In this document: positions 15,915-29,591 of the stretch, one piece after another
Layout of the letters: every line of letters starts with the position of its first letter
Numbering within the stretch: the first letter of the stretch is position 1
IMG/VR virus record: IMGVR_UViG_3300029309_000235
Location: 1 to 29,591 of that record
Direction: 5' to 3' (one strand)
DNA: 29,591 bases
DNA from: a virus
Program-made: the position numbers and the translations under genes
The notes under the pieces: generated by a model
Seen by the model: only the letters and a program-made list of their open reading frames with translations
The model's database searches: none
Told to the model about the DNA's origin: nothing

Positions 15915-16160
15915 TTACCCCAGCAGATCAGCAAGATCAGATAAGCTTACATTTGGGAATAACATAGCAGACTTTTTGCGATTCTGCTTCTTTATAATGT
16001 TGTTTACCCTTTTCGATCGTGTCGACAAGCACCGAACACAGACGAACAGATCCGCCCAGCTAAGCTTTGCAATCTCACAGGGAAGTACACCGTAACGAGC
16101 GCCAATAAGATCGTAAATGTGGAGCAGTTGTTTGTCATTTGCGAAAGCTCGCCGCTTTTT
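15915..16160 (-). CDS. Tail chaperone frameshift extension (gpT-like)
   Basis: An open frame in the +1 (equivalently -2) register relative to the tail assembly chaperone. It has a nominal ATG at 16193, but no ribosome site there, and its first residues merely shadow the other gene. It is best read as a C-terminal extension of about 75-80 residues added by frameshifting near 16138-16160 to give a product of about 245 residues. The extension (KQLLHIYDLIGARYGVLPCE...) is mostly helical and basic. In phage lambda the equivalent gpG-gpT product recruits the tape measure. Confidence 0.75.
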   Translation of the reverse strand, partial: KKRRAFANDKQLLHIYDLIGARYGVLPCEIAKLSWADLFVCVRCLSTRSKRVNNIIKKQNRKKSAMLFPNVSLSDLADLLG

Positions 16161-16653
16161 GTGCGGCCTCCTTATGGCCTTGCATTGCTGCATCCATAAT
16201 AGCTGATCGGTCTTCCTTGCTCAACATACCAACCCACAAAGCGCCCGTATCGGGATTTTGCTGGTCAATACCCGTTACCAAAAATAACCGCTCCCACGAC
16301 ACACCACCGTCTGAGCTGCCTCTTTTAACAACCTCGCACAATATACGGTCTTCTTGATCAGTCATTGCACTAAGCTGCTCAGGACGCAAGGACGACATAA
16401 ACCCAATGAGCTGATCCTGCTCTTGCTCGGTTAGGTCTTCGCCCTCTTGCGCTTTGTTTGCAATGTCTTGGATGTTCTGTGCGCCGGTACTGCGTTGATC
16501 TTTGACGATCTGAGCTGCAATAAGGGAAGAGGCCAGCCCGGCCCGCTCTGCTTCTGCTGGGGTCAATATGCGGCCTTCAATGAGCACTTGCCCGCCAAAA
16601 CACTCAACCCGCCAAAAGCTATCCTGTACTAGCTCTTTTAAAAAATCCTTCAT
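16135..16653 (-). CDS. Tail assembly chaperone (gpG-like)
   Basis: A 172-residue acidic, helical protein between the tail tube gene and the tape measure, the fixed position of gpG-type chaperones that coat the tape measure during assembly. AACAGGAGGATC precedes ATG 16653. Its 3' end contains AGGAGG (16167-16172), an A5 run (16156-16160) and a TTT-C site shortly before TGA, and overlaps a second frame that lacks its own ribosome site. An 89-base gap separates it from the tail tube gene. I see no clear promoter in that gap. Confidence 0.8.
   Translation of the reverse strand: MKDFLKELVQDSFWRVECFGGQVLIEGRILTPAEAERAGLASSLIAAQIVKDQRSTGAQNIQDIANKAQEGEDLTEQEQDQLIGFMSSLRPEQLSAMTDQEDRILCEVVKRGSSDGGVSWERLFLVTGIDQQNPDTGALWVGMLSKEDRSAIMDAAMQGHKEAAQKAASFRK
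16138..16172 (-). promoter_or_regulatory. Programmed frameshift signal in tail chaperone
   Basis: On the minus strand AGGAGG (16172-16167) is followed six bases later by CAA AAA G. A -2 slip of the AAA tRNA re-pairs perfectly within the A5 run. A +1 slip at TTT-CGC (16146-16141) before the AAA TGA end is the other option. Internal SD-like elements are known stimulators (dnaX, prfB). Which slip occurs cannot be told from sequence. Confidence 0.55.
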
Positions 16654-23457: not shown

Positions 23458-24585
23458 TTACAGATCTGTCTTACCATCAATAACGGGTACAATGGTACAG
23501 CGGCAGTTTACATCAAGCGATGGATCGCCGAAGTTGGCAGGGATGGGGCTGGTATATCCTTCGCTCTCAAACTCCTCATTGACCCCCACAATCACACCGT
23601 CAAGATCGGCATGTGCTTCTCTTACTTTTGCATCCCTTGAGCTAAGCCACTGCTTCTGAATGTTGATCCCTGCTGTAGCTGCTTGTCGATAGGCTTGATC
23701 CGTTGAAGCATTGAGTGCTTTGGTGCTTTCGGTTCTTGCTATTCTCAGCGCTCTATCTTGAGAGAATGCAAGAGAGCCAGATAAACTGCTTGCTATATCG
23801 GGCACGCTTGCACCTGCCACGAGGCCCCGCTGAATGATTGACTCCACGCTTTTAACAGTGGTATTTGTCATTTCTTGCGCAGCTCTATCCGACAGCTGCA
23901 CAGCAAGATCACGACGACCGAAGACCAGATCAAGCGGCCTAGCTACATCAGCAATTCGGAAGACCCGATCCAGCTCTGCGTTTCCGGTCAGCATAAACCA
24001 TTTAACAAACTCACCCTGATAACCTTGTTTCAGCAGTCTTAACTCTTCTGCTTTCTGCGCCCGTACCACATCAAGCAAGCCCTGCTCACTGTTCTCTTCG
24101 ACTATTCGCACAAAGCGCCTTCTTGCGCCCCTTAAATAGCCATTTACGCGCCTTTTAATGCCCTCTTCTGCTTTGCGCTGTGATCGCTCAACCCAAGCAT
24201 GCCACATGTCCGCCCGCTCTTCTGGAGTAAATGACCGATCTTCTTTATCGAGTTTGCGCTTTAACTCGTTGAGGACTTGCTTCATCCTGCTCTCACCGAT
24301 CACGCTTACCCCGTACCATTTGATTTGAGCCACAAGGCCCGCAACGGTGGACAGGTTGATCGGGTGATCTCTGTCTCTGAATTGCGCCCCGTCGCCCTCG
24401 TGCCTAGCGATCCAAGCTTCTCTAAGCCTTATGGCGTTCTCTTCTGATTCTGATGTGGGTACACCGTTGTTTTTTACTATTGGCGTGAGTCTTCGATATT
24501 GGTCATTGCCTCGTATGTTTCCGCCAGCTCTCCAGATCTTAGGGTACTCTTCTTTAAGCTTTGCTGCATAAGTAGGGTCGAACAA
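23458..24585 (-). CDS. MuF-like head morphogenesis protein
   Basis: About 375 residues from a TTG at 24585. The C-terminal half holds a phage Mu gpF-like domain: RIARTESTKALNASTDQAYRQ, then WLSSRDAKVREAHADLDG and the final DVNCRCTIVP. The N-terminal half (DPTYAAKLKEEYPKIWRAGGNIRGN...) is a separate conserved-looking region. The reading frame and what looks like conserved sequence (FPKRGDDLKVSLRNSQWK) continue upstream past the TTG to the A10 run at the end of the portal gene, with no usable ATG, GTG or TTG there. The protein is therefore probably made largely as a portal fusion by -1 frameshift. MuF proteins join the portal and enter the head. Confidence 0.8.
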   Translation of the reverse strand: MFDPTYAAKLKEEYPKIWRAGGNIRGNDQYRRLTPIVKNNGVPTSESEENAIRLREAWIARHEGDGAQFRDRDHPINLSTVAGLVAQIKWYGVSVIGESRMKQVLNELKRKLDKEDRSFTPEERADMWHAWVERSQRKAEEGIKRRVNGYLRGARRRFVRIVEENSEQGLLDVVRAQKAEELRLLKQGYQGEFVKWFMLTGNAELDRVFRIADVARPLDLVFGRRDLAVQLSDRAAQEMTNTTVKSVESIIQRGLVAGASVPDIASSLSGSLAFSQDRALRIARTESTKALNASTDQAYRQAATAGINIQKQWLSSRDAKVREAHADLDGVIVGVNEEFESEGYTSPIPANFGDPSLDVNCRCTIVPVIDGKTDL

Positions 24586-24644
24586 TTTCCACTGTGAGTT
24601 CCTAAGGCTGACTTTGAGATCGTCGCCTCGCTTGGGGAAATTGG

Positions 24645-26705
24645 TTATCTCAGAATTTTTTTTTTCGGTTGAAGGCTCAGGTAAACTGGCGACAAAGCTG
24701 GAGCATCTTGCCCGAGCTTGTCGTAGTATCTAGAGATCACACGATAGGCTCGCTCACGCTCCTCTTCAGTGATTGCTAACCTGCCGTCTGCGCCATTAAG
24801 TAGATCGACCGCCCGGCTGAGCAGATCCTGATAGACCACAAGGCGCCCTTTTTCAGGCGCTGCATTTGTGGGATCCTGTGGGTCTTCTCGCCTTGCAATA
24901 AGCAACAAGTAACCGTCTAACATTTGATCCTGTTCTGGATTATAGAGCGCATGTGCTTCTCTGTATCGCTCCCAGTTTGGGGGAGAGCCAAGAACAGATC
25001 GCCGGATGTCCTCGTGGCTTTGTTGCTGTGGGTTACCTGCATCTTTGCTCACTTCAAGATCCGCATATTCGGCATCGTAAACCCTAGAATGATCAACAAT
25101 ATATAGCCGCTCTTCGCTGCTCATCGGGTGATCTTTGGGTAGCAGATCTGTGTCGTGTTTGCCTGAGCGATACCGCCCGTTTCTAAGCGCATAAAGAAAG
25201 CTGTTGACTCTAGCCATAGCCCACTGTTGCGCACTGTTAACAGAAGGCCGCACAGATGCAGGGTTGTTTTCATAAGCGCCTAAGCCTCGATGGTAAGACA
25301 CAGCTAAATAATTGCTGTTCGTTAGCTTCTTAGCTTTGTTGTTCCCGTGCTCCTCATTGTGCTCTTTTGCTTTGCGCTTGAGTGCGGTCTGTGTTCCCTC
25401 TGGCAGGTCGTTCATCGCCGATCTTGCGTTTGACTTGTCGCCATAATCAACCGCCTTAAAAATGGCGCTCAGCATCCTTACATTGTCGTCCTCTTCTTGT
25501 CCGATGTCCGCCGGATCAGGTTGTACGCTTGGAAAATCAAGACCTTCTGCGGCATATGCTGCTTGAGGATCGATACCGTTGAGGATGTGCAATTGTACCC
25601 TGTTGAGCTGTTCTGTTCTCACGCTTTGCAAAGCTTCTACCCCGCTGTAGTCGTGTTCTATTCTATAGTCAGGGTTAAATCGTTGAGCGATCAGGGTCAA
25701 CAACTCACCTAGCTGCTTACCTTTCTTGATCTGATTCGTCCAGTAGTTGATCGCCTGTTGTCGGCTTGTGGCATAGTTCGCAGCTGGTAAACCGAGCACT
25801 GTTGGCGGCACACCCATAACTGCGGATATAGACTCTCTAGCCATGCGTCTTGATGCTTCGAATTCCATTTCACGCGGTGACAGTTGCAGTTCTCTAACTT
25901 CTACCTGTCCACTGAGCACAAGAGCACCACCTTCTGATGCTAGCCCGCTGTACTGATCCGCAATTTGTCGCCTTGTTTCAGAGGGCCAAATGTCCCCGTC
26001 TTCTTTTGGGTAGAGCAGAATATCGGGCCGCCCTTTTGCACTTGCGTCTGATGCTAGCTTTTGAGCGTTCAGGTCTGCATCGATCTCCCTGCTTAGGGCC
26101 TCAACAGCGCCGCAACCATAGACAGATTGAGCGCCCTTAGCATAGCTGTAGTTCTTGCCATGTATCACCCGCTCAGGAGGATAGAGGACTACTGAGCCGC
26201 TGCTGTTGTGTTCGTATCCAGTGATGCCCATCTTTGGATCTGTGACGATCCTAACCTCATCGGGATGCAATCTAACCAGCGACAAAGGCCGATTGTCACG
26301 AGGCCCAAGAAGCAAAATGTAACAGTTACCCGCCAGCATCAAATCTGTTAGCAGTGACTCCCTAAGCATGAAACCGCTTTCTTTGCTGTTGGGCTGGTCG
26401 AGCAGGTCGAGCACATCCGACTCAGCGATCTCTTCAGTGTTTGCGCCTCGCCCTTTGAGTAACTTGATCGGCAGTGCTGCGAGATCCTGAGCGCTTCGCT
26501 TAGCTGCGGCATGTGTATATCCGTGAATGCCATATGCGGCCAATGATGCGCCTTGTGAGTAGGTAGGTCGAACTCCAGCAGGAGCGGCCCAAGCAGCGCC
26601 CCTATTTTCTTCTTTGGGTCTTGCTACGGGTTGAGCGTAAGATTTTCCCGTGATCGCATCCCACAAGCGCAAAAAATAACCTTGTCTCTTTTCTAGATCT
26701 GACAT
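24645..26705 (-). CDS. Portal protein with C-terminal extension
   Basis: A 686-residue protein starting at ATG 26705 (AGAGG upstream; an in-frame GTG at 26711 is less likely). Residues to about 420 match HK97-type portals: AAAKRSAQDLAALPIKLL, ESGFMLRESLLTDLMLAGNCYILLLG, VIHGKNYS, SAVMGVPPTVLGL and YATSRQQAINYWTNQI. The rest is an extension with ALKRKAKEHNEEHG, VRPSVNSAQQWAMARVNSFL and a Lys-rich end, a region I associate with phage portal/MuF proteins. The last codons are an A10 run (24656-24665) before TAA. A -1 slip there would give a fusion of about 1,082 residues with MuF. Confidence 0.9.
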   Translation of the reverse strand: MSDLEKRQGYFLRLWDAITGKSYAQPVARPKEENRGAAWAAPAGVRPTYSQGASLAAYGIHGYTHAAAKRSAQDLAALPIKLLKGRGANTEEIAESDVLDLLDQPNSKESGFMLRESLLTDLMLAGNCYILLLGPRDNRPLSLVRLHPDEVRIVTDPKMGITGYEHNSSGSVVLYPPERVIHGKNYSYAKGAQSVYGCGAVEALSREIDADLNAQKLASDASAKGRPDILLYPKEDGDIWPSETRRQIADQYSGLASEGGALVLSGQVEVRELQLSPREMEFEASRRMARESISAVMGVPPTVLGLPAANYATSRQQAINYWTNQIKKGKQLGELLTLIAQRFNPDYRIEHDYSGVEALQSVRTEQLNRVQLHILNGIDPQAAYAAEGLDFPSVQPDPADIGQEEDDNVRMLSAIFKAVDYGDKSNARSAMNDLPEGTQTALKRKAKEHNEEHGNNKAKKLTNSNYLAVSYHRGLGAYENNPASVRPSVNSAQQWAMARVNSFLYALRNGRYRSGKHDTDLLPKDHPMSSEERLYIVDHSRVYDAEYADLEVSKDAGNPQQQSHEDIRRSVLGSPPNWERYREAHALYNPEQDQMLDGYLLLIARREDPQDPTNAAPEKGRLVVYQDLLSRAVDLLNGADGRLAITEEERERAYRVISRYYDKLGQDAPALSPVYLSLQPKKKILR
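24656..24665 (-). other. A10 slippery run joining portal and MuF frames
   Basis: On the minus strand ten A in a row are read as AAA AAA AAA ATT in the portal frame and contain the canonical A AAA AAA heptamer. The -1 frame is open from here to the end of MuF. Runs of this length also allow RNA polymerase slippage. A homopolymer sequencing error is the other explanation: A11 in place of A10 would fuse the genes outright. Confidence 0.7.
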
Positions 26706-28692: not shown

Positions 28693-29126
28693 TATTCATC
28701 CAAATCGATCACAGGATCGGCAATAAAATTTTCTAGCTCAAGATCTGTCTCTTTGACCTGCTGAATGAGCTGTGTGATGCTCGCTTCTTTTGCGTCAATC
28801 TGCACAATGACCTCCGGCTCTTGTTTTGCGTGGTATTTGTGGCGGCGCTCCATAATCCAAGCTGAAGCCTGCCATGTTCCCTCCTTAGCGGCCTTCTGAA
28901 TGATTGCCATATTGACCAGAGCGCTCTTTGCAATTGCCTTTTCAATTGCTTGTAAAAACTGAAAGTAAATTCCCTCATTCTCGCGGCGACCTCTGTTCAT
29001 CCAGTTATAAAAAGTCTTCTGCTCAATCCCTGCATATTTTGACGCAAGCTCGATCGTCATTCCCAGCTGTAGCGCCTCGATGATCATTGCCTGTCTTTGT
29101 GGGTTTAGCTTTGTTCGTCTAGACAT
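28692..29126 (-). CDS. Terminase small subunit
   Basis: A 144-residue complete copy. The N-terminal helix-turn-helix (LASKYAGIEQKTFYNWMNRG, about residues 28-47) is followed by a helical oligomerisation region (QAIEKAIAKSALVNMAIIQKAA) and WIMERRHKYHAKQ, then an acidic tail. It recognises the packaging site and hands DNA to the large subunit two genes downstream. The start is inside the methyltransferase end (22-bp overlap) and its stop shares an A with the next ATG. The first 54 residues are identical to the left-edge fragment. Confidence 0.85.
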   Translation of the reverse strand: MSRRTKLNPQRQAMIIEALQLGMTIELASKYAGIEQKTFYNWMNRGRRENEGIYFQFLQAIEKAIAKSALVNMAIIQKAAKEGTWQASAWIMERRHKYHAKQEPEVIVQIDAKEASITQLIQQVKETDLELENFIADPVIDLDE

Positions 29127-29591
29127 ACATCCTCCTCTAAGCGCTCAATCTTTAAAGCCTCTATCTCTACAATATCGACACCTTCGGCATTCTTGATCCG
29201 CTGCAAACAAATATCAGCATAGTCGGGTTCTCGCTCAATACCGATCGATCTGAACCCCTCAAGACTTGAGGCTACACCAGTAGTTCCAGACCCAAGAAAA
29301 GGCTCTAAAACAAGACCGTTAACGGGTGTCACAAGGCGAATAAGCCAACGCATCAAATTGACGGGCTTGACTGTTGGATGAAAGTTTTTAACCTCACCCG
29401 CTGTTCTTCCTGTGCCCGCTCTCGGATCATTGATTCCCTTCTCCCACTTATTCGGCTTTGTGTCTTTCTGGTGCTGTACAGCAGGAGGAACTTTGGCTTC
29501 AAGATCTGTAAGTCCCTCCTCACGCTCTGATCGTGATGGTTTCGGGCATTGGTAGAGGTTAGCGGGCCATCTTCCTGTCAAGTGACCACTC
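28965..29591. repeat. Right copy of diverged terminal redundancy
   Basis: The partner of 1-612. It carries a 15-base net insertion and an unrelated block in the methyltransferase (about 29419-29498), while the last 93 bases are identical to 520-612. It holds the start of the small terminase and the end of the methyltransferase. Confidence 0.85.
29105..29591 (-). CDS. Methyltransferase C-terminal part (right copy)
   Basis: The C-terminal 161 codons of a second version of the methyltransferase, cut by the window edge. From FHPTVKPVNLMRW through motif I (FLGSGTTG) to the C-terminus it is nearly the same as the left copy; only EIEALK replaces EIDGLK. Between DLE and PRAG, 24 residues (AKVPPAVQHQK...) replace 19 (SKSSAAVEYHG...), a complete change. 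This block precedes motif I, in or next to the expected target-recognition region of a beta-class enzyme. It overlaps the small terminase start as at the left end. Confidence 0.85.
   Translation of the reverse strand, partial: SGHLTGRWPANLYQCPKPSRSEREEGLTDLEAKVPPAVQHQKDTKPNKWEKGINDPRAGTGRTAGEVKNFHPTVKPVNLMRWLIRLVTPVNGLVLEPFLGSGTTGVASSLEGFRSIGIEREPDYADICLQRIKNAEGVDIVEIEALKIERLEEDVCLDEQS

Follow-up and report, generated by a model that had tools for sequence, protein, structure and literature searches.

A run of ten A residues at the junction of the portal and MuF genes in the viral sequence analyzed here (29,591 nucleotides, termed the window) is very probably a programmed slippage site, at which slipping, most likely by RNA polymerase and otherwise by the ribosome, would produce both a plain portal and a MuF-bearing portal. 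On sequence comparison alone, the run in the window and its relatives appears to be kept by selection, with two meaningful products in different frames.

Both genes are on the minus strand. The HK97-type portal gene (24645..26705, PF04860 E=1.3e-42) has its ATG at 26705, preceded by the good ribosome site AGAGGTG, ends at TAA 24645 and encodes 686 amino acids, with the core domain at 25608..26510 (PF04860, residues 68-368). This is followed by a mobile DUF5824-like domain, termed DU (25113..25424), for which the PF19141 match (E=0.0036) is below that family's cut-off and of which copies 55-67% identical are present in other phages, and by a C-terminal portal extension, termed PC (24657..25091), which is lost or replaced in many relatives. 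The A10 run occupies 24656..24665. The MuF frame is the -1 frame, extends from stop to stop at 23458..24729 and would be read only after a slip at the run; it contains a second mobile domain at its N terminus, termed MN (24280..24654, with the pattern TNFP..RNS..IW..GGNI), and the MuF core (23491..23850, PF04233 E=4.9e-18). The scores for PF04860 (146.6 bits) and PF04233 (66.3 bits) both exceed the curated cut-offs for an HK97-type portal and an SPP1 gp7-type MuF protein, with the TIGR01537 and TIGR01641 matches falling just under theirs. The portal half and the MuF half both match PHROG 2662, a family of portals as long as such a fusion; the two halves do not form one continuous frame in the window DNA but do so in many relatives. 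An AlphaFold model of the MuF part is confident for the core and not for the MN domain, and no PDB match was found for it.

The portal frame ends CCG-A10-TTCTGAGATAA, the segment after the run (24645..24655) closing a short portal with the C-terminal residues QPKKKILR. This arrangement, with MuF in the -1 frame, was described in an earlier note on the same DNA and is confirmed by the sequence. The note placed the opening of the MuF frame about 25 codons before the run; the frame is indeed open to the MuF stop, from 24729 to 23458, with the opening 21 codons before the run. Recomputing the product of a one-base slip gives the 1,082-residue portal-MuF fusion that had been proposed (683+399). As had also been stated, the MuF frame contains no ATG, GTG, TTG or CTG between its opening and TTG 24585, the first start-like codon, which is located 70 nucleotides past the run inside the conserved MN domain and has no Shine-Dalgarno site. 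On the evidence of its codons the start-codon-free stretch ahead of it (24586..24655) is translated, because in the 72 nucleotides beginning with the final two A's of the run all eight codons that differ between the window and the relative L002 are synonymous in the MuF frame, each at the third position. The nearest relative with one continuous gene, L008, carries the same post-run peptide (NSEITNFPKRGDDLKVSLRNS), and many relatives have this peptide within a single portal-MuF gene that is in frame throughout, bearing out the earlier view that it is conserved and continues into MuF. Relatives checked for a MuF start of their own or for non-homologous sequence upstream show the opposite, the peptide being conserved and the run kept.

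Two ways of explaining the window without slippage can be weighed at this point. Independent translation of MuF from an internal start in phages with separate frames, for which the in-frame TTG 24585 is available, can be almost wholly discounted, as this codon is within the conserved MN domain without a ribosome site, the 70 nucleotides ahead of it evolve as MuF coding sequence, and the closest relatives with separate frames (L002, L004, L030, L031 and L040) also lack any start codon preceded by a ribosome site close to where the MuF part begins. Homopolymers are error-prone, and an assembly or sequencing error in a gene that is truly continuous is scarcely more probable: five other contigs from four metagenomes have the identical A10 and the same split, which makes a miscounted A11 or A8 unlikely, and L008 has the same A10 with its frame difference from the window outside the run.

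The A10 is the window's sole A9+ or T9+ run, both strands counted, although shuffled versions of the window contain a mean of 0.89 matches, so that one A9+ run somewhere is unremarkable by chance. Judged by comparison with relatives, its position at the junction and its retention are not chance. Relatives were gathered by scans of viral contigs in which the queries were the portal, the MuF frame and alignments of these, and the best 80 per scan were taken, so that the counts describe this sample; about 190 loci were obtained, some being overlapping pieces of one contig. Clusters of junctions were counted only where a run of at least eight was present, and clusters inside a clade are not independent. 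The run is present in 60 junctions forming 46 clusters among these best 80 loci per scan, with representatives carrying A9 (n=15), A10 (n=30) or A11 (n=1), so that all 46 fall within A9-A11. The coding strand of the same loci holds six other A9+ runs in 379 kb, and the portal-MuF genes outside the junction hold 4 in 116 kb. Both the window A10 and the runs of its relatives are thus coding-region homopolymers of at least about nine A or T, as in programmed transcriptional slippage.

The residues encoded by the run vary among clusters (KKK, EKKK, QKKN, GKKN, IKKK), as does its phase, and the DU, PC and MN domains come and go with the run staying directly before the MuF part. This retention while residues, phase and neighboring domains change points to selection acting on the nucleotides of the run. 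Flexible lysine-rich linkers are common between domains, and some relatives also have A-rich runs between MN and MuF, so the run could be viewed as a passively conserved A-rich lysine linker, with fused genes giving one fusion and split ones being separate or decayed genes. Such a linker is improbable, as AAA accounts for only about 0.4-0.8 of the lysine codons in these genes, the A9-A11 length is constant while the encoded residues vary, and a distant group of phages has T9 or T10 coding for phenylalanine at the same place. In L010, L011 and L038 the MN and DU domains are deleted, yet A9 and the split frame are retained.

Comparison with relatives, as the earlier note had advised, reveals both fused and split versions with the junction run retained. 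In the L015-L028 clade (A9) and most A10 relatives, portal and MuF are fused in the DNA and the -1 frame soon reaches a stop; the DNA encodes the short portal, with MuF in the -1 frame, in the window clade, L010, L030, L031, L040, L104, L117/L118, L122, L176 and L190. A slip therefore makes the short portal in fused clades and the fusion in split clades. At least seven changes between the two states are placed on the portal-core tree, a quick tree in which some forks are weak. The window differs from L008 by a one-nucleotide indel just 5' of the run, the A10 and the downstream length being the same; a one-base change that would break an ordinary gene is tolerated here, which fits slippage providing the other product in either frame. 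A -1-frame stop occurs within two codons of the run in 21 of the 34 fused clusters compared with 7.4 expected. Stop proximity was rejected as proof by itself, since background -1-frame stops are frequent in these genes and the gene-by-gene test is weak (combined P = 0.07), with only the count of very near stops being high.

Homopolymers are hypermutable, and the occurrence of both states across the family would also be compatible with DNA-level phase variation, in which run length switches the fusion on and off between generations. This is very improbable, because within each clade neither run length nor frame varies between independent metagenomes, with A10 in six window-clade contigs (the window included) and A9 throughout the L015-L028 clade, and the flip between the window and L008 lies outside the run.

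A second family carries T runs in the equivalent place. The portals of the isolated phages GBK2 and Silence are 25-28% identical to that of the window, and both have a T9 at the portal/MuF junction, coding for NFFL and SFFL; the other two frames reach stops after 0 and 3 codons. Six of the seven loci of this group whose sequence covers the junction (GBK2, Silence and L204-L208) have T9 or T10 at the junction, in each case the only run of eight or more T in the locus; the seventh, L207, has a T7 with a -1 stop immediately after. No such run is present at the junction in the more distant L209 and L213 or in Arthrobacter phage Abidatro, which has a plain fusion, and neighbors from Alteromonas, Pseudoalteromonas, Desulfofustis and spring water (L214-L220) have ordinary separate portal and MuF genes with no run of seven or more at the place searched.

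An alternative source of the same two products would be the ribosome, shifting by -1 on T TTT TTT or on A AAA AAA, the latter cited in the earlier note as a canonical slippery heptamer. The heptamer of the form X XXY YYZ is present in the right phase in every A9+ run as A AAA AAA, MuF is in the -1 frame wherever the split is clear (in L194 the relation is +1, but this locus contains additional runs, and in L094 and L188 there is a further shift elsewhere), the T7 of L207 with its immediate -1 stop suits a ribosomal slip, and a few sites have stable downstream RNA, with z below -2 at two of eight (L092, z -2.6; L117, z -2.2). Seven A's would be enough for the ribosome, however, yet 9-11 are present in all 46 clusters. 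Shine-Dalgarno sequences are not enriched upstream (8 of 46 clusters compared with a 15% background), and strong downstream RNA structures are not in excess over controls across the 46 clusters, the downstream RNA being slightly more stable on average (mean z -0.74 compared with -0.11). In the EKKK clade, a possible conserved stem after the run was examined by eye and rejected, as its third-position pairing seemed no better than chance. Slippage as such is supported, with polymerase slippage favored over ribosomal slipping because the runs are of nine or more (in all 46 A clusters and six of the seven T loci), either A or T is used and clear frameshift signals are absent; a length of nine is where many bacteria show selection against slippage (PMC1088944). 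Ribosomal frameshifting remains the less likely route, although the only alternative with appreciable probability.

About 20 fused family members among the best 80 loci per scan have no junction run, and the short form is therefore not universal there. In run-less L076, L077, L079, L082, L107, L151 and L154, and in L111, L161, L167 and L168, the LKKKAKEHN motif of the DU domain has A9/A10 or A AAA AAG, followed 1-5 codons later by a stop in the -1 frame, and may represent a slip site that has been displaced. A scan of prokaryote genomes gave seven loci with one clear run-bearing member, L194 (PBAL01000088.1), which has A10 beside MuF plus A8 and A9 runs close by and is located in a Verrucomicrobiales bin, a possible hint at the host. 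In Salinibacter phage 5_12 (L061 6290-9094) and other Salinibacter phages the MN and DU domains are ahead of an apparent prohead protease, and both look like mobile domains of head proteins.

Elsewhere in the window, a likely tail-assembly-chaperone pair on the minus strand (15915-16653) has frames that overlap near CACAAAAAGCGG (a +1 or -2 relation) and is probably a further site of recoding in this genome. Positions 1-612 and 28965-29591, the ends of the window, are 87.5% identical, each carrying one of two diverged copies of a DNA-methyltransferase gene end; this reflects either a true duplication or an artefact created in joining a permuted genome.

MuF-type proteins are present in few copies per head and are loaded through the portal. 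Slippage at the junction would allow one gene to give two proteins with a common portal N terminus, the plain portal and a portal with MN and MuF at the C terminus. In the window phage the DNA frame would give the short portal, and one nucleotide added in the RNA (or a -1 slip by the ribosome) would give the fusion. We infer that both forms join one 12-subunit ring, so that a few MuF copies would be tethered inside each head (PMC6316719), and the product ratio and the role in MuF copy number are likewise what we infer. The earlier proposal that a small part of the portals carry MuF may apply to split clades such as that of the window and cannot hold for fused clades. Selection would keep the mixture rather than the default product, which would let the run persist while the default frame flips. 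Somewhat on the favorable side of even, homopolymer slippage may be a recurrent, possibly independently evolved route to mixed portal rings in which a set fraction of subunits carries MuF and the default flips freely. If the slip site does mix plain and MuF-bearing subunits, it would directly answer how a symmetric ring sets a small MuF number, and the isolated phages GBK2 and Silence with their junction T9 make the idea testable. The family also offers a clear example from nature of selection apparently preserving a slippery run as the encoded frame changes, and it shows that such loci are misread by gene callers, which give either two genes or a single fused gene.

Ribosomal frameshifting to -1 is known in phage tail-assembly genes and in Escherichia coli dnaX. 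Homopolymer-slippage recoding, frameshifts in phage structural genes and portal-MuF fusions are each already known separately; a portal-MuF slippage site with a flipping default frame and recurrence with T in place of A was not found described in the open-licence papers searched. Natural fusions (PHROG 2662, GBK2 and Silence, and Microbacterium phage clusters EA3/EA5/EA8/EB; PMC7302621) similarly have portal and MuF in one polypeptide, but are described as plain fusions with no junction slippage run reported in the literature searched. The capsid and tail-chaperone frameshifts of lambda (G/GT), A2, T3 and Listeria phage PSA (PMC5009743) also yield a minor C-terminally extended structural protein, with a direction that varies among phages; these differ in being in coat, tail or chaperone genes rather than the portal, in being described as ribosomal, and in having no flipping default frame around a long homopolymer. 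In Thermus thermophilus dnaX, transcriptional slippage on A9 gives a long and a short protein and the slip shortens the product (PMC1088944), as it would in the fused clades here, although that gene encodes a DNA polymerase subunit with no known change of polarity, whereas here a phage portal is extended by MuF. The type VI secretion gene tssM has A11 in Citrobacter rodentium and A9 in Yersinia pseudotuberculosis, and the orthologues slip in opposite senses (PMC4256274), one giving the long form and the other the short form, as is seen between the clades here; that case concerns two bacterial genes, compared with at least seven changes in a phage family together with a distant family that has T runs.
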